From contig JAHZKX010000062.1 of the NCBI GenBank assembly GCA_022600195.1, forward strand, positions 1-64,000: 64,000 bases of DNA, written 5' to 3'. Both the position numbers and the translations under genes were made by a program. The notes below the pieces were generated by a model, which saw only the letters and a program-made list of their open reading frames with translations, searched no databases and was not told the origin of the DNA. This document shows positions 48,391 to 60,567 of the stretch, one piece after another; the stretch's first letter is position 1; each line of letters starts with the position of its first letter. Origin of the DNA: Planctomycetota bacterium. GTDB lineage: Bacteria > Planctomycetota > Planctomycetia > Planctomycetales > Planctomycetaceae.

Positions 48391-50679
48391 ATGATGATCC
48401 AGAAAAAAGTCCACTACCTGAAACATTACTTTCGCTGCTTGCTGTCACTGGCTTTGATGGCGGGAATCTGCGGGTCACCACTGTTGGCGGCAGATTCATC
48501 CAGAAAGTCTTCCAGACGCAGCAGTTTAAAAAGTTCCTCCAGCAGATCAAGTCAACCACAACGTTCACAATCGTCTTCAAAACGTTCCAGTCGGTCACAA
48601 AGCTCCAGCCAGTCGAAAAGCAGTCGGCCCCAAAGTAGTCAGCCCCAAAGTAGTCAGCCCAAAAGCAGTCAGTCGAAAAGCAGTCGATCCCAAAGTAGTC
48701 GAACACAGCGCACACAGCCGAAGTCAACACCTTCGACTTCCAAACGTTCCTCTCGTTCTTCACGACCTGCTTCAAAAGTCACGCCACAAAGATCAACACC
48801 CAAAGTGAGCAATCGCGGAACCGGAAAATCACGACCCTCCTTCAAGGTAACGCCGAAAACAACGCGACCTGCTTATAAGATTCCTCAGACAAGCAAACGT
48901 CCGAGTGTAAAAGGGATTTCCAAAACTCCACCATCGCGCGTGCCCAGTCTCAAAATTCCGAACCGAAAACCAGGCACGACAAAAGACTTACCCAAGCCCG
49001 GAAAAGGAACCTTCGTTCCGAAACCCGGAAAAGGAACCTTCGTTCCGAAACCAGGTAAAAATAACGTGAAGCCAAAACCGGGCAAGAACAATGTGTTCAA
49101 ACCAGGCAAAGGTACATTTAATCCCAAACCCGGAAAAGGAACCTTCGTTCCAAAACCCGGAAAAAATAACATGAAGCCAAAACCGGGTAAGGACAATGTG
49201 TTCAAACCAGGTAAAGGTACATTTAATCCCAAACCCGGAAAAGGAACCTTCGTTCCGAAACCCGGAAAAAATAACGTGAAGCCAAAACCGGGCAAGAACA
49301 ATGTATTCAAACCAGGCAAAGGTACATTTAATCCCAAACCTGGAAAAGGAACCTTCGTTCCGAAACCAGGTAAGGGCATCAATGTTCCCAAGCCAGGTAA
49401 AGGGAACAAAGTTCCGAACCTCGGCAAAGGCAATCAGTTTCAGCCGATTCCTCCATCCAAAAAATGGATCGGTAAAAATGGTGTTCCTCTCAAGAAAGAC
49501 TTGTTTAAAGGTAAAAACATCAAACCAATCAACGCGAGTCTCCAGAAACAGTTGAAAGCCGGAAAATTAAATTCTCTGATCAACAGCAAGAAAAGCAAAA
49601 AGTGGAATCTCAAGAAGCAGTTTGATCTGCACAAAAAAGGCGACGTCGCACGACAGATGCACTTCCACAAGAATTTGCTTAAGCACGGCGGTTGGAGAAA
49701 TCGAACGCTGTTCGGTCGCATGTCACTCTCATACACCAAATCACACTTTGGTTGCTGGTACGCCGGCCCTGGTGTGTATCCCAGCTACTGCTGGAGCCCA
49801 CACTGGAGCGAGTGGGTTGACTGGTGCTGGTGGGACTGGTGTCACCCCATCTGTGATCCGCGACCACTCTTCTGTCGTCCTGTCATCTGTGAACCATGTG
49901 TTGCCTGGGACTGGTATGAATGCCCTGTCTGGCAGCCACTGCCCATCGTGACCTGTGGTACCTGGGTTGACGTTGAACCCATCGTGATCAATACCGGCCT
50001 CGACTTGCAGATGTTGGCAGTACGGTTTGTAGATTCGGGACACGCAGAAGAAGAACTCGGACCTCGCTTCCGTGTCTGGTTCCGCAATAACAGTAACGTT
50101 GACATCCACAAACCGTTCAATGTAATGCTGTTGGCTTCCAATTCACATGAATTATCAGAGGGTGTACCCGAAGCGGGATCACGCGTTGATAATATCGCCG
50201 CGGGTCAGATTCAGTCTGTCGATATCCGTCTGCCTTTTGCAGCCAGCACAATGTCAACCGATGCAGAAGGAAATGAAGTTCCTTTCGAACAATTGCATGT
50301 CTTGATCGATTCACATCGTGAAATTCCTGAAGCCTTCGAAGAAAACAATGGTGCTGTGATGGCACGCGTTGATGTCCTGTCTGTCGATCCTGCTCTGTTT
50401 TCAACCGACACAGAAGTCGTCGTGAGTGGGGGAATGGTGAATCTGGCAGGCGAAGGTCTGGGACCGGAACCCGGTAAAGTGCTTGTGTCACTCAATGGCA
50501 TGAATTTTGAAGCGGAAATCCACGGCTGGTACGATCTCGGTGTTCGCGTCAAGATGCCCGAACTGCCTCTCTTAGATGCAGCAGAGGCAACCTTGATCGT
50601 GGTCCGAGGAGATGGAGCCGCTTCGAATCCAATCGAAGTACAATTTGCACCACTGATGGCGGAAGTCGTCGCTGAATGA
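48391..50679 (+). CDS. Secreted repeat-rich protein: Ser/Arg tail, PGK repeats, Trp/Cys belt, CARDB and TIG domains
   Basis: This 762-residue protein has a signal peptide (about 1-34) and GGGAAGAG before its ATG. Residues 37-125 are Ser/Arg/Lys/Gln-rich. Residues about 195-350 carry sixteen PGK units plus one degenerate unit, in a near-identical 35-residue (105-bp) super-repeat copied three times. A Lys-rich stretch follows. Residues about 450-530 are packed with Trp and Cys ('WSEWVDWCWWDWCHP'). The C-terminus has a CARDB-like domain (about 535-665) and an IPT/TIG-like domain (about 670-755). It is strongly basic and probably lies in or on the envelope, binding an acidic polymer or cross-linking. 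The function is unknown. Confidence 0.85.
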   Translation: MMIQKKVHYLKHYFRCLLSLALMAGICGSPLLAADSSRKSSRRSSLKSSSSRSSQPQRSQSSSKRSSRSQSSSQSKSSRPQSSQPQSSQPKSSQSKSSRSQSSRTQRTQPKSTPSTSKRSSRSSRPASKVTPQRSTPKVSNRGTGKSRPSFKVTPKTTRPAYKIPQTSKRPSVKGISKTPPSRVPSLKIPNRKPGTTKDLPKPGKGTFVPKPGKGTFVPKPGKNNVKPKPGKNNVFKPGKGTFNPKPGKGTFVPKPGKNNMKPKPGKDNVFKPGKGTFNPKPGKGTFVPKPGKNNVKPKPGKNNVFKPGKGTFNPKPGKGTFVPKPGKGINVPKPGKGNKVPNLGKGNQFQPIPPSKKWIGKNGVPLKKDLFKGKNIKPINASLQKQLKAGKLNSLINSKKSKKWNLKKQFDLHKKGDVARQMHFHKNLLKHGGWRNRTLFGRMSLSYTKSHFGCWYAGPGVYPSYCWSPHWSEWVDWCWWDWCHPICDPRPLFCRPVICEPCVAWDWYECPVWQPLPIVTCGTWVDVEPIVINTGLDLQMLAVRFVDSGHAEEELGPRFRVWFRNNSNVDIHKPFNVMLLASNSHELSEGVPEAGSRVDNIAAGQIQSVDIRLPFAASTMSTDAEGNEVPFEQLHVLIDSHREIPEAFEENNGAVMARVDVLSVDPALFSTDTEVVVSGGMVNLAGEGLGPEPGKVLVSLNGMNFEAEIHGWYDLGVRVKMPELPLLDAAEATLIVVRGDGAASNPIEVQFAPLMAEVVAE
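48985..49440 (+). repeat. PGK-encoding tandem repeats, 105-bp period
   Basis: The DNA coding for the PGK segment repeats with a 105-bp period; equivalent points fall at 49096, 49201 and 49306. The copies are nearly identical at the DNA level, so they were recently duplicated or are kept alike by recombination. Confidence 0.85.
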
Positions 50680-55173: not shown

Positions 55174-55626
55174 ATGCCCGACGATCTTGTCTTTATGATG
55201 GGGAATTTTGAGGCCCGAATTCCTCAGGACCGTGTTTATAGTAAGTCACACCTGTGGTTCAAGCGGGGGGAAGCGCATTGGCGCGTCGGTTTTTCTGCCT
55301 ACTCGGTTCGGTTATTACAGGATGTCTATTTTCTGGATTGGGCCATTGATCCGTTTACCAATGTTCAGGAAAAACAAAAAATTGGTGAGATTGAGAGTTC
55401 CAAAGCATTATCCGACTTGTATGCCCCTTCGGCTGGCCGAATTTTGGAATTCAATGAAGAACTGTTAAACGATCCTTCCGCCATCAATCAGGCGGATAAT
55501 TACGAAAAAGGCTGGTTATTTGAGATGGAGTCAGAGGAGCAGTGGTTGACCCCGACAGAGTACCTGCAAATATTAGATGATGGTTGGGAGCAAACCCAAC
55601 GATTGATTAAAGGACAACTCAACTAG
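55174..55626 (+). CDS. GcvH-like lipoyl carrier protein
   Basis: The 150-residue protein matches the glycine cleavage H-protein fold. The lipoyl lysine is K77 in '[20 protein letters not shown]', and '[20 protein letters not shown]' plus 'GWLFEM' are typical of the C-terminal part. The N-terminal half diverges from standard GcvH ('[20 protein letters not shown]'). The rest of the glycine cleavage system (gcvT, gcvP) is absent. Instead it starts a rightward run with a ferredoxin, terpene cyclase and prenyl synthase gene (44, 45 and 85 bases apart). It may carry intermediates or electrons for that pathway, or be a lipoate storage carrier. Confidence 0.88.
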
Positions 55627-55670
55627 AAAACGAATCCTCGTTTCAGTTTTGTGATATAAAGGTTTTCGGA

Positions 55671-56735
55671 ATGGCGGATAAAAAATTAACAGTGGTGATC
55701 TCTCAGGCGCAGGGGAAAAATCCCGCGAAGCGTGAGCTGGAAGAATCGCTGGCAGCCGCATTGCTGATGGAATCCGATTTGGAAGTTTCACTGGTGCCTC
55801 ACCTTTACGATCTTTCTCCTGATCATACGGGAACCATGTTTCTCCAGGCCATCCCCGGCGATATGGTTGTCCTCTCCTGGTTATATCCGCGGGCCAGTCA
55901 CTGGGTACTCGACCGACAGGGAGTCCGCGGCCATGAAGGGCTGGTGCTCTTAAAAGAAGAGATCAATGAAGAGGAACAGGAAGATCCCGAAGCCGAAGAA
56001 AATAAATCGACCCCGTTTGAAAATCCCGAACGTCAGCAGACGATTCCCGATCGAAAAATTTATAACATCGATTTACGCGTCAGCTCCAATCCCGATGACT
56101 ATCTGAAAGAAATTAAACGCCTCGCTCAGGATGCACAGGTGCAAACATTTCAGTTGGGAAATCTGATCCAGGAAACACCCAAACCGGCGCAGCTCGAAAA
56201 ATATCTGAAGCCGCTGGACATCATTAACGCCCAAAATAACAACACCCCTAACAATAACGGTAGCGCCAATAACGCGGCTGACCAGTTAGAACCCACCAAG
56301 CGCCGCTGGTATCCCGTCATCGATTATGGTTTGTGTACGAATTGCATGGAGTGTATCGATTTTTGTCTGTTCGGCGTCTATGGCGTTGATCAGGGCGGAC
56401 AGGTTCTTGTGGAAGAACAGGATAGCTGTAAAAAAGGCTGCCCCGCCTGCAGTCGTGTCTGTCCCGAAAACGCCATCATCTTCCCGGGACATAAAACACC
56501 GGGCATTGCAGGCGCCGATGGGGAAGTGGCCGGCTTGAAAATTGATCTCTCCAAACTCTTTGGTGCCCCCGATGCACTCGAAATGGCAGCCAGAGAACGT
56601 GATGTCGAACTCGTCGCCGAAGGACGAGATGCCGTGGGCCTGTCCGTTGGAGTGCCCAAACGCCTCAAAGTATCTCAATCAACCAGCGATGAGCTAGACG
56701 ATCTCATTGACAGCCTGGATTCCATGGAATTGTAA
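55671..56735 (+). CDS. 8-Cys [4Fe-4S] ferredoxin with large N-terminal region
   Basis: The protein is 354 residues. Residues 1-95 form a compact region of unknown family, 95-125 a Glu-rich linker, 130-185 another folded part, and 187-205 an Asn-rich linker. Two iron-sulfur motifs follow: C222-x2-C-x2-C-x3-C232, and C253-x3-C-x2-C-x3-C264, with an expanded second loop. It should carry two [4Fe-4S] clusters and act as a cytoplasmic electron carrier. It is the second gene of the cluster. The large N-terminal part sets it apart from simple ferredoxins and may dock a partner enzyme. Confidence 0.87.
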
Positions 56736-56780
56736 GACTTCACTTATGCAATTAAGAACTCTGGCCAGTAAGATAGCGGA

Positions 56781-58643
56781 ATGAGTGAAACAGTTTCCTA
56801 CCAGAGAATTCAACAAGCTTACCAGCGGGCACGCACAGAATTGCTTTCTGCACGGACTGAAGCTGGTTACTGGGAGGGAGAACTTTCCACATCAGCACTC
56901 TCGACAGCAACAGCCGTCATGGCACTGGAAATGATTCGCCGCCACCGTCCGCAAGACGACCACACACTCGATACCACTATCGCGCAAGGCATACACTGGC
57001 TGGCCACCCATCAAAATGAAGACGGCGGCTGGGGCGATACCGTCAAAAGCATCAGCAATATTTCCACCAGCATGCTCTGCCATGCGGTCTTTCATGCGAC
57101 CAAGAATACAGAAAAATTTGCAGCCATCGTCGTGAATGCCAAACAGTATATCGATCGCATTGGCGGCGTCGAAGCAGTCATTGCCCGCTACGGAAAAGAC
57201 AAAACGTTTTCCGTGCCCATCCTCACACATTGTGCACTCGCAGGCTTAGTCGAATGGAAAACCATCCCTGCGCTACCGTTCGAATTGTCCTGCCTGCCCG
57301 CTCAGTTCTACAAAACAGTAAGGCTCCCCGTTGTCAGCTATGCATTGCCCGCTTTGATTGCCATCGGCCAGGTCAGGCATCATTTCTGTAAACCCAAAAA
57401 TCCGATTCTGCGTCTCATTCGAAATGTCTCGATTCAGAAGAGTCTGCAGAAACTGATCTCCATTCAACCCAGCAATGGTGGATTCCTCGAAGCGGCTCCC
57501 TTAACCAGCTTTGTGACCATGAGTCTCGCGGGCATGGGCTTAGTCGATCATCCGGTGGTGCAGAAGGGACTCCAGTTTTTGCTCGATTCCGTCAAGCCCG
57601 ACGGCAGTTGGCCCATCGATACGAATCTCGCCACCTGGACGACCACGCTCTCTGTGAATGCGATTGAGGGCACGCTTTCCGAATTCGAAAAAGCACCCAT
57701 TCGTCAGTGGTTGCTGAATCAGCAATACAAAGAAATGCATCCCTATACCTCAGCCGAACCAGGAGGCTGGGCCTGGACTGATCTGCCCGGAGGCGTGCCC
57801 GACGCCGACGATACCCCCGGTGCGATTCTCGCGCTCTTGAATTTGAATTCTGAAGAGGCCGAGGATCAGCTCTCTACCGAATTACGAACCCCAATTTACA
57901 ACGGCGTCAAATGGTTGTTGGATCTCCAGAACAGTAATGGCGGGTGGCCCACATTTTGCAAAGGCTGGGGCACACTTCCCTTTGATCAGAGTGCCGCCGA
58001 CATTTCCGCGCATGTCATTCGTGCCTTGCAGGCCTGGCTCAATACAGAAGCGACCGACGATGAAACGTCACTCCGAAAACGCGCGACACGCGCCGTCGAG
58101 CGTTCGTTCAAATATTTGGCTTCCGTACAACGCGTCGATGGTTCCTGGTTGCCACTCTGGTTTGGTAATCAACATATCGACAATGATGAAAATCCGGTCT
58201 ACGGCACGGCCCGCGTTTTAGCTGCTTATGCCACACAGGAAAAACAAAAATCAACACAGGCCACACAAGCGGTCGAATTTCTGAAAACAGTCCAAAATAC
58301 AGACGGCGGCTGGGGCGGCGCGAAAGGAGCACCCTCCAGTGTGGAAGAAACCGCGCTCGCCGTGGACGTTTTGCTGTTGATTGGCCTCGATCCAGAGAGC
58401 ACCACAATCGTAAAGGGGCTGAACTGGTTACTCGAACAGGTCGAGAGTGGCACATTTACCGAATCCACGCCAATTGGCTTTTACTTTGCCAAATTATGGT
58501 ATTTCGAACAACTTTATCCAATTGTCTTTTGTGTTTCCGCCCTGCATCGAGCGGAAATGGTTTTGAAAAAATGTGCGGATGCTAATTTAAGATCGTCGCT
58601 AGAGGGCGAAGATTACCGTATAATATGCGCCGAGGAAAAATAG
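56781..58643 (+). CDS. Squalene-hopene-cyclase-like class II terpene cyclase
   Basis: The 620-residue protein has the length and repeat pattern of squalene-hopene cyclase. The catalytic acid motif is D341-A-D-D344 ('PDADD'), which protonates the substrate. QW-type motifs appear at 'QNEDGGWGD', 'VKPDGSWPID', 'QNSNGGWPTF', 'VQRVDGSWLPLW' and 'VQNTDGGWGG'. It should cyclise squalene or another polyprenyl substrate in the membrane interface. Differences from typical SHC exist, so the true substrate is unsure. It is the third gene of the cluster, just before a prenyl synthase fusion; no squalene synthase is in the window. Confidence 0.88.
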   Translation: MSETVSYQRIQQAYQRARTELLSARTEAGYWEGELSTSALSTATAVMALEMIRRHRPQDDHTLDTTIAQGIHWLATHQNEDGGWGDTVKSISNISTSMLCHAVFHATKNTEKFAAIVVNAKQYIDRIGGVEAVIARYGKDKTFSVPILTHCALAGLVEWKTIPALPFELSCLPAQFYKTVRLPVVSYALPALIAIGQVRHHFCKPKNPILRLIRNVSIQKSLQKLISIQPSNGGFLEAAPLTSFVTMSLAGMGLVDHPVVQKGLQFLLDSVKPDGSWPIDTNLATWTTTLSVNAIEGTLSEFEKAPIRQWLLNQQYKEMHPYTSAEPGGWAWTDLPGGVPDADDTPGAILALLNLNSEEAEDQLSTELRTPIYNGVKWLLDLQNSNGGWPTFCKGWGTLPFDQSAADISAHVIRALQAWLNTEATDDETSLRKRATRAVERSFKYLASVQRVDGSWLPLWFGNQHIDNDENPVYGTARVLAAYATQEKQKSTQATQAVEFLKTVQNTDGGWGGAKGAPSSVEETALAVDVLLLIGLDPESTTIVKGLNWLLEQVESGTFTESTPIGFYFAKLWYFEQLYPIVFCVSALHRAEMVLKKCADANLRSSLEGEDYRIICAEEK

Positions 58644-58728
58644 TTCCCGCCAAAGACCCCAATAAGATGTTGAATCCATTACTGAAATCATCGCTCAATT
58701 GAGCTACTTATTATAAGAGGAGTGTTTT

Positions 58729-60567
58729 GTGTCCATTGCGCCATTAGACCAGGAAAGTTCTGGTAACAGCCCTGCCTCCGGCAAGACTGAAGAGCACTCT
58801 TCTGCAGAGAAAAAACCGGTCAAACGGAAACGCCAGAGTACCAGCCACCTCAAAGCGGTTCCCGATACCCTCGCACTGCGCGAAGAGATGAAAGCCGCAG
58901 CCGAAAAGTATGTCGAGCAGCTCGATTTCTCCAACCCTTTTACAAAAACCACATTGGAAAAATGGTCGCGGGATTTACTTGATCAAATGAATCAGCCTGA
59001 AAAGTTTCTGGGCTTCATGATGGTCTTAATCGGAAACTTTTTCTGGAAGCGACAATTTCTGGCGATTCCTTTCGAACGACGCCTGCTGTTATTGCCCCAC
59101 TGTTTGAAACACGCCGAAGGTTGTCCCGCGGAATACGATGAGTTTGGTCTCGACTGCGAAAAATGCGGCGCGTGCTCCATTGCCGATTACAAAGTCAAAG
59201 CCGAAAAGCTCGGCTATAAAGTGCTCGTTGCTGAAGGGTCTCCCGTCGTTCTCAAAATTATCATCGGCGGTTACGTCGATGGGATTTTAGGAGTCGCCTG
59301 CCTGAACGTTCTGGAGAAATCCATCGATAAAGTGTTGATCGCAGGCGTGCCCTCCTACGCGATTCCTCTGCACTCGGGCGACTGTAAAAATACAAAAATG
59401 GATGAGCCCTGGATCTGGGAAGTCCTGGAAGAATACCAACCGTTGGAAGAACCGCTCACGCGCAGTTATCTGCCCACCATGCGGGCCGCCAATGCACTGT
59501 TTGAAGAAAACTTCGATCAGATCTTGCCACCACTCCGCACGAAAACAGAAGCAGCCGCAAAGACACCGCTCGGCAAAACAGAAACCATCGCCTACGACTG
59601 GCTCAAACATGGCGGCAAACGATTCCGCCCCTTCATTACACTCGCCGCCTACGATGCTCTGGTGAAAGATCAATCATCGACGACCGAAGAAAAAGAAACC
59701 GGTCAGGCTTACCCGCTGGGCGTGCAAAAAGCGGCAATGGCCATCGAAGTCTTTCACAAAGCGTCCCTGATCCATGATGACATCGAAGACGATGATCAAT
59801 ACCGTTATGGCCGCGAAACCCTGCACCGCCAGCATGGCACCGGCATGGCCATCAATCTGGGCGACTACCTCATTGGTATCGGCTATCGTCTGTTGAATGA
59901 AGCCCGCGCCGACATCGGGGCCGAAGCAGCCGCCGATCTGGTCGAAAAAATGGCAGCCGCCCACATAAAACTCTGTGAAGGGCAGGGTGCCGAAATGGCC
60001 TGGCAGGAAAGCCAGTCGTTTGAGCTGGCTCCCCTCGACGCCTTGCAAATTTACGCCCTCAAAACATCCCCGGCTTTTGAAGCCGCCTTGTATGCGGGAA
60101 TTCGCATGACCGGTTCCACTGGCCAGTACGAAGAGTTAATCTCTTCGTTCTCCCGACATATCGGCGTCGGTTTCCAGATTCTAAACGATCTCAAAGACTG
60201 GAACGGCGACGACAATAATAAACTCATCACAGGTCAGGACGCACTCGCCATGCGACCAACGCTACTGTTGGCACTGGCTCTGCAAACAGCCGACGATCAG
60301 CAGAAAGCAGACCTGAAAGATATTCTGCAAGGCAATCCCTCCGACGGCTTGCGAATCGGCCGTCTGCGTAAAATCTATCAGGATTGCGAAGTCTTCACAA
60401 AAGCAGAAACCCTGGTGGATAAATCCCGCGCCCGCGCTGAAGCCCTGGCAGAAAGCGTCGAGAACGAAGACTTCAAACAACTCCTGAAGTTCTTCTGCGA
60501 ATCCGTACTGGCCGAGGAACTACCAGAAGCAAAGCCAGAACCCAACGTCCTCATGCCTCTCGTCTAA
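58729..60567 (+). CDS. DUF116 - polyprenyl synthetase fusion protein
   Basis: The 612-residue protein has a basic Ser-rich N-terminus (1-50), a DUF116-type Cys-rich domain at about 75-240 (C125, C132, C143, C146, C149, C191, C219), and a polyprenyl synthetase domain at about 255-600. The prenyl synthase shows 'KHGGKRFRP' and the first Asp-rich motif D350-D-I-E-D354. The second motif reads N486-D-L-K-D490, where the family normally has DDxxD. It should condense isopentenyl units; product length is unknown. It starts at GTG with AGGAG 7 bases upstream and ends the cluster. Confidence 0.87.

Follow-up and report, generated by a model that had tools for sequence, protein, structure and literature searches.

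A four-gene run and its protein families

The stretch of DNA analysed here, subsequently designated the window, comprises 64,000 nucleotides of contig JAHZKX010000062.1 from a Planctomycetota bacterium and carries a cluster of four genes at 55174..60567, which encode a GcvH-like lipoyl carrier (H), a ferredoxin (Fd), a squalene-hopene cyclase-like protein (SHC) and a DUF116-polyprenyl synthase (DPS). The four genes are a piece of an old, uncharacterised enzyme set, which is present in many planctomycetes and some other bacteria and most likely builds a ring-bearing isoprenoid lipid, completing it by iron-sulphur radical chemistry. Coordinates of the open reading frames (ORFs) bear out the same-strand run described in the original prediction: the order is H-Fd-SHC-DPS, all genes lie on the plus strand, and 44, 45 and 85 bases separate them. 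None of the three gaps contains a plus-strand terminator-like site (over both strands, 15 terminator-like sites were found versus 7.8 in shuffles), while promoter-like sites occurred at chance level (5 seen versus 5.9 in shuffles), leaving that scan uninformative. Pfam and NCBIfam agree with the family names first given to the four proteins; the curated NCBIfam cut-offs are not reached by the GcvH-like, SHC-like and prenyl-synthase proteins. Below, G, L and C denote genomes (G000 being that of the window), loci and contigs, respectively.

H (55174..55626, plus strand) possesses both a GCV_H domain (PF01597, E 7e-20) and the lipoyl-lysine motif. E74 and K77 are invariant in 21/21 cluster-type H proteins, and the region around K77 (codon at 55402..55404, plus strand), the predicted lipoyl lysine, aligns with H proteins in the PDB; as in other members of the family, this residue would carry the lipoate. 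The protein misses the GcvH equivalog of NCBIfam (75.8 bits versus a cut-off of 115.85). It had been claimed that gcvP is missing, which holds for the cluster but not for the genome, in which gcvP is located on C41 adjoined by a gcvH-like ORF of its own. Because this second GcvH-like ORF adjoins gcvP, the H protein of the window is a separate paralogue, distinct from the gcvP-linked copy in the genome search, and a role in glycine cleavage is disfavoured.

Fd (55671..56735, plus strand) combines a long N-terminal region with Fer4 domains, as seen in domain searches and alignments. Its dicluster iron-sulphur (Fe-S) domain (56307..56486, plus strand) contains eight cysteines, C222, C225, C228, C232, C253, C257, C260 and C264, which are invariant in 16/16 sequences. 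By eye, the N-terminal region resembles a small CxC protein of distant loci, minus the cysteines of the latter. The one member of this small protein that was scanned yielded zero Pfam or NCBIfam matches; by eye it is similar to the N-terminus of HdrA.

The SHC-like protein (56781..58643, plus strand) is a class II terpene cyclase by its domains (PF13243/PF13249; SQHop_cyclase_C, E 6e-41; SQHop_cyclase_N, E 2e-29) and by a DxDD motif (DADD; 57801..57812, plus strand), whose residues D341, D343 and D344 are invariant in 13/13 sequences. The motif aligns with PD-VDD of squalene-hopene cyclase, and squalene-hopene cyclase 1gsz is the top PDB match. Scores stay below the hopene-cyclase cut-offs, with 127.9 versus 431.1 for TIGR01507 and 152.3 versus 322.7 for TIGR01787.

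DPS (58729..60567, plus strand, GTG start) joins a DUF116 domain (58987..59424, plus strand; PF01976, E 1e-36) to a polyprenyl synthase domain (59587..60345, plus strand; polyprenyl_synt, PF00348, E 3e-43). Its structure was predicted with a pLDDT (predicted local distance difference test) of 85.8, and the top Foldseek matches are geranylgeranyl diphosphate (GGPP) and polyprenyl synthases; as prenyl synthases filled the listing, nothing was learnt from it on DUF116. Fold and DDxxD motif together mark DPS as a putative trans-polyprenyl diphosphate synthase. The first aspartate-rich motif (DDIED; 59776..59790, plus strand) keeps D350, D351 and D354 in 24/24 sequences of one alignment (A1) and in 40/40 of another (A12, consisting of the window and 39 of the 52 listed DPS ORFs), and the second motif reads N/D-DLxD by eye. 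In these families such motifs are established signatures of activity, which they would indicate here as well. In the DUF116 domain, cysteines C132, C146 and C149 are invariant and C125, C143, C191 and C219 are kept in at least 90% of the 40 sequences. In the 24-sequence alignment the cysteines are kept in 22 to 23, the exceptions being L086, which lacks all seven, and L032, which lacks four and keeps three. L086 is a second DPS copy in G105, and L032 is the DPS copy of G087. Among NCBIfam families, the prenyl synthase domain scores highest with the family 2 encapsulin cargo polyprenyl transferase, at 130 bits versus a cut-off of 450.

The same fusion was already noted in 2015 as Psta_0175 in PMC5898192, where DUF116 was predicted, from other contexts, to bind metal and to act in electron transfer. 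Section 3.6 of that paper gives one sentence to the fusion, and the other genes treated below are not described there. A description of the module as a whole was not found in the open-licence PMC literature searched. In this literature, the DUF116 fusion alone was noted beforehand; as a system, the wider set counts as an isoprenoid biosynthetic module.

Companion genes and the question of hopanoids

The four genes were originally taken for the whole system. However, companions reside on other contigs of the same genome: a partner radical S-adenosylmethionine (SAM) protein, designated c5 (C49:104900-106090), a one-domain toroid, c3 (C39:22439-23365), and a CobW GTPase (C70:270310-271404). The radical SAM motif CxxxCxxC of c5 is formed by C58, C62 and C65, which are invariant in 13/13 sequences, as are C269, C288 and C328; the copy of G000 stands outside this alignment and scores 653 bits with the profile. 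The two c5 proteins scanned miss the HpnH equivalog, with 34.1 and 41.6 bits versus 225.05. The nearest PDB entries of c3 are the beta subunit of Rab geranylgeranyltransferase and SHC-type domains, and its role as a cyclase is putative. A precedent is set by MstE, a class II cyclase with a single domain that takes part in making merosterolic acid; its substrate, according to PMC9401909, is a prenylated aromatic acid.

The presence of SHC-like domains with DxDD, together with HpnH among the weak matches of the radical SAM protein, might suggest a divergent hopanoid pathway acting on squalene. Hopanoid (hpn) clusters, which comprise SHC (HpnF) and the radical SAM protein HpnH, likewise pair a class II SHC-type cyclase with a radical SAM enzyme, both acting on isoprenoids. 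However, the module described here adds the DUF116-prenyl synthase fusion, the one-domain toroid, the ferredoxin and the lipoyl protein, and every array contains a dedicated prenyl synthase. The SHC and HpnH scores, far below the cut-offs of the hopanoid families, further disfavour this pathway, which we consider very unlikely.

Co-inheritance of the module across genomes

A search for DPS covered 294 planctomycete genomes, of which 70 were counted as DPS-positive at a threshold of at least 130 bits for the fusion or part of it; this count takes in the paralogue genome G087 and partial matches, G028, G075, G098, G242 and G280 among them. DPS-positive genomes are spread over 34 of the 92 planctomycete family labels. 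The neighbourhoods compared number 61, namely the window and 60 from 59 of the other 69 DPS-positive genomes (G105 contributed two), leaving out G028, G035, G051, G075, G089, G098, G240, G242, G277 and G280. Across all loci of the analysis, three pairs, L052/L121, L062/L116 and L088/L109, represent the same sequence twice. The idea that the four genes belong together stood up in this comparison, as all four are present in 34 of the 61 neighbourhoods, in 33 of them on one strand. A contiguous H-Fd-SHC-DPS run with gaps below 600 bases is found in 11/61, i.e. the window, five genomes of its genus, and L077, L082, L084, L087 and L088. Counted singly, SHC is present in 49 neighbourhoods, Fd in 47, c3 in 39, H in 38, c5 in 30, CobW in 27, the CxC protein in 26 and a NifS-like gene in 14. 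A usual order in more distant families is H, CobW GTPase, small CxC protein, Fd, radical SAM, DPS, c3 and SHC.

A second radical SAM family, c24, lies in 6/61 neighbourhoods (L038, L040, L042, L056, L065 and L068, from G041, G107, G114, G145, G219 and G284), all from genomes without c5; 11 DPS-positive genomes lack c5. The one c24 member scanned gave weak B12-binding and MiaB-type radical SAM matches, and its nearest NCBIfam family, below cut-off, is of the B12-binding radical SAM type. Also in L110, L114, L117 and L137, c24 replaces c5 near DPS.

Genome-wide counts over the 294 genomes follow the same pattern. Strong c5 matches (above 450 bits, the next being 259; 77/294 genomes pass 1e-60) occur in 59 genomes with DPS and in none without. 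Cluster-type H (at least 160 bits, the next being 107; 279/294 pass 1e-8, mostly with ordinary GcvH) is found in 52 genomes with DPS and again in none without, and c3 (E at most 1e-12) in 65 with and one without. The latter is G010, in which c3 lies 144 bases from a contig end. Profiles for Fd and CobW were positive in 23/24 and 18/20 genomes, respectively, in sets chosen mostly as DPS-positive. Pairwise distances among DPS, SHC, c3 and radical SAM proteins correlate with r 0.65-0.96 (0/999 permutations each; 42 loci, including the duplicate pair L062/L116); these correlations, to which shared ancestry contributes, and the Fisher p-values for co-occurrence ignore phylogeny. Taken together, Fe-S and radical proteins are inherited as a unit with isoprenoid enzymes. 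Several relatives have the genes scattered, as would be expected if unrelated genes had become adjacent by chance, but neighbourhood counts and distance correlations speak against this, and co-occurrence over the 294 genomes rules it out, leaving it a negligible probability.

A natural loss control is provided by G087, which belongs to the genus of G105. Strong H, CobW, Fd, radical SAM and c3 are all missing from G087, only the cysteine-poor DPS paralogue is left, and SHC is missing from the neighbourhood of the latter. The two genomes thus offer a natural plus/minus pair in one genus for lipid comparison. G126 lacks both CobW and strong H.

Outside the planctomycete set, a scan of the GTDB contig collection had 80 loci among the matches listed; their phyla are taken from record titles, which can be wrong for metagenome-assembled genomes. 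Among these matches, the fusion appears under Verrucomicrobia, Kiritimatiellota, Lentisphaeria, Candidatus Zipacnadia and Bacteroidetes/Bacteroidota titles. Fd, c5, DPS, c3 and SHC stand together in at least 12 of the loci listed (L124, L127-L130, L132-L135 and L138-L140), ten of them with titles of the Bacteroidota group, L133 titled Planctomycetes and L139 titled uncultured bacterium; Parabacteroides and Tannerella are among the titles listed for this core. The full set with H, CobW and CxC protein was seen in one Verrucomicrobia-titled locus among the matches listed, L115, and L112 there carries H, CobW, CxC, Fd and DPS. H and CobW, presumably accessories, occur chiefly in Planctomycetota and in some loci with Verrucomicrobia titles.

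A proposed module for a cyclised isoprenoid lipid

On balance, we favour the view that a conserved module, of which the cluster forms one block, makes a polycyclic polyprenoid lipid and tailors it by radical/iron-sulphur chemistry. From the observed protein families (at the level of domains), motif conservation and co-inheritance we infer the following mechanism. DPS would elongate a prenyl diphosphate to a polyprenyl diphosphate, with its DUF116 part acting as a putative Fe-S or metal/redox domain. Binding and cyclising the polyprenyl chain would fall to the SHC-like protein and c3, SHC presumably acting by acid catalysis through DxDD. Fd may supply low-potential electrons to its partner radical SAM protein, which would modify the lipid. 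H would most likely serve as a dithiol/acyl (or sulphur) carrier and the CobW GTPase most likely as a metal-loading chaperone, both for the Fe-S/radical enzymes. Of the redox module on an isoprenoid or hopanoid originally proposed, the association of Fe-S/radical proteins with isoprenoid enzymes is retained, but the hopanoid is not; the redox proteins may act directly on the lipid.

Apart from the phylogenetic dependence noted above, several observations weigh against this interpretation. A strong H match is missing in 18 of the 70 DPS-positive planctomycete genomes, some of which are incomplete, and cluster-type H was not found in 10/10 distant genomes, which may be incomplete. Nine of these ten have some H match, the best one, at 102 bits, reaching the level of ordinary GcvH. 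The central place first given to the lipoyl protein is therefore not supported; since cluster-type H was not found in the ten distant genomes, the lipoyl carrier looks accessory rather than core. Two cases, G167 and the Bacteroidetes-titled L135, have CobW but no strong H. Because the sets searched for Fd and CobW were mostly DPS-positive, G087 alone speaks for the absence of these two outside such genomes. SHC, which was counted in neighbourhoods and not genome-wide, is missing from 12/61 of them. Finally, c3 could be a protein-prenyltransferase-like binder instead of a cyclase.

Unlikely, in our estimate, is that H, Fd, CobW and a cysteine desulphurase form a maturation or sulphur-delivery team for the radical SAM protein and never touch the lipid. 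CobW-family proteins are metallochaperones, and the NifS-like gene in 14 of the 61 neighbourhoods would fit such a role. GcvH-like proteins outside glycine cleavage are already known, and according to PMC6067878 the GcvH-like lipoyl protein LbpA serves sulphur oxidation, next to Fe-S/Hdr-like parts in the sHdr system. The module differs from sHdr/LbpA, as presented there, by its isoprenoid enzymes; inspection of the arrays revealed neither hdrB/C/D nor an LplA-like lipoate ligase, although no search aimed at them was made, and the ten distant genomes manage without cluster-type H.

Genes found near the core offer a further possibility, to which we assign a low but appreciable probability: the product might be a chorismate-derived, redox-active meroterpenoid, i.e. 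a quinone-like lipid. In this scheme, a chorismate-lyase-like enzyme would provide the aromatic head, DPS the tail and SHC/c3 the rings, tailoring would be by HemN-like and c5 radical SAM proteins, and NapH-like membrane Fe-S proteins would use the product. Indeed, a protein with chorismate-lyase fold (UbiC-like) is encoded near DPS, mostly directly after it, in 18/118 neighbourhoods (window, L031-L147; L088 and L109 are one genome). An iron alcohol dehydrogenase (FeADH), HemN-like protein, H, Fd, SHC, DPS and UbiC-like protein are co-located in L088/L109 and in L101. DPS-positive genomes hold 49 of 59 genome occurrences of HemN-like (E at most 1e-90) and 35 of 43 of UbiC-like (E at most 1e-5). 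Furthermore, propellers of the pyrroloquinoline quinone (PQQ)-like type and Fer4_5 membrane Fe-S proteins are found near the core in L069, L110, L127, L128, L133, L135 and L139, whose titles name different phyla. Six of these seven loci, all but L139, also encode a Tat-type Fe-S protein, on the opposite strand in L110. The membrane Fe-S protein resembles NapH/NosR profiles below cut-off in 3/3 loci tested (L069, L127 and L135), and NuoE/F-like proteins are present in L133, L135 and, by eye, L139.

However, several points speak against this scheme. The structure model (pLDDT 90) has DUF98 protein 2nwi and chorismate lyase as top Foldseek matches, with template modelling (TM) scores of 0.64/0.79 for 2nwi and 0.54/0.64 for 1g81, in keeping with a chorismate-lyase fold, but UTRA ligand-binding domains have the same fold and score similarly. 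Sequence comparison with the PDB gave weak matches only, and Pfam supported 2/6 members, with a best E of 0.021. HemN-like and UbiC-like genes also occur in 10 and 8 DPS-negative genomes, respectively, which rules them out as obligate parts of the module, and because G087 keeps both as well, they can act alone. The associated flavoenzyme bears a WxWxIP motif of the halogenase type. Finally, the genome has three UbiA homologues, none of which was identified as a dedicated aromatic UbiA; judged by eye, their neighbours are an MqnE-like gene, cytochrome-oxidase/heme-A-type genes and an inositol-phosphate-synthase-like gene.

In G000, a one-strand run on C49 at about 77.5-83.3 kb (L177 7507-13274, minus strand) encodes FeADH, a BamB-like propeller, the HemN-like radical SAM protein, the UbiC-like protein and the WxWxIP flavoenzyme. 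The HemN-like/UbiC-like part of this run is found again in further families, also where the DPS module is missing.

A broader proposal, which we regard as quite speculative, is that DUF116-prenyl synthase, class II cyclases and radical SAM proteins produce a cyclised isoprenoid redox cofactor of a new class, distinct from both menaquinone and hopanoids, which is used by NapH-like membrane Fe-S complexes and is common to planctomycetes, verrucomicrobia and gut/rumen Bacteroidota. For the polyprenoid lipid module that we favour, the seven or so co-inherited genes are candidates for the synthesis of a membrane lipid or lipid cofactor not seen before, and they place both DUF116 and the GcvH paralogue in a testable context.

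Elsewhere in the window, positions 48391-50679 encode a protein with many near-identical KPGKGTFNPKPGKNN-type repeats behind a Ser/Arg/Gln-rich stretch; related ORFs occur in L071-L073.

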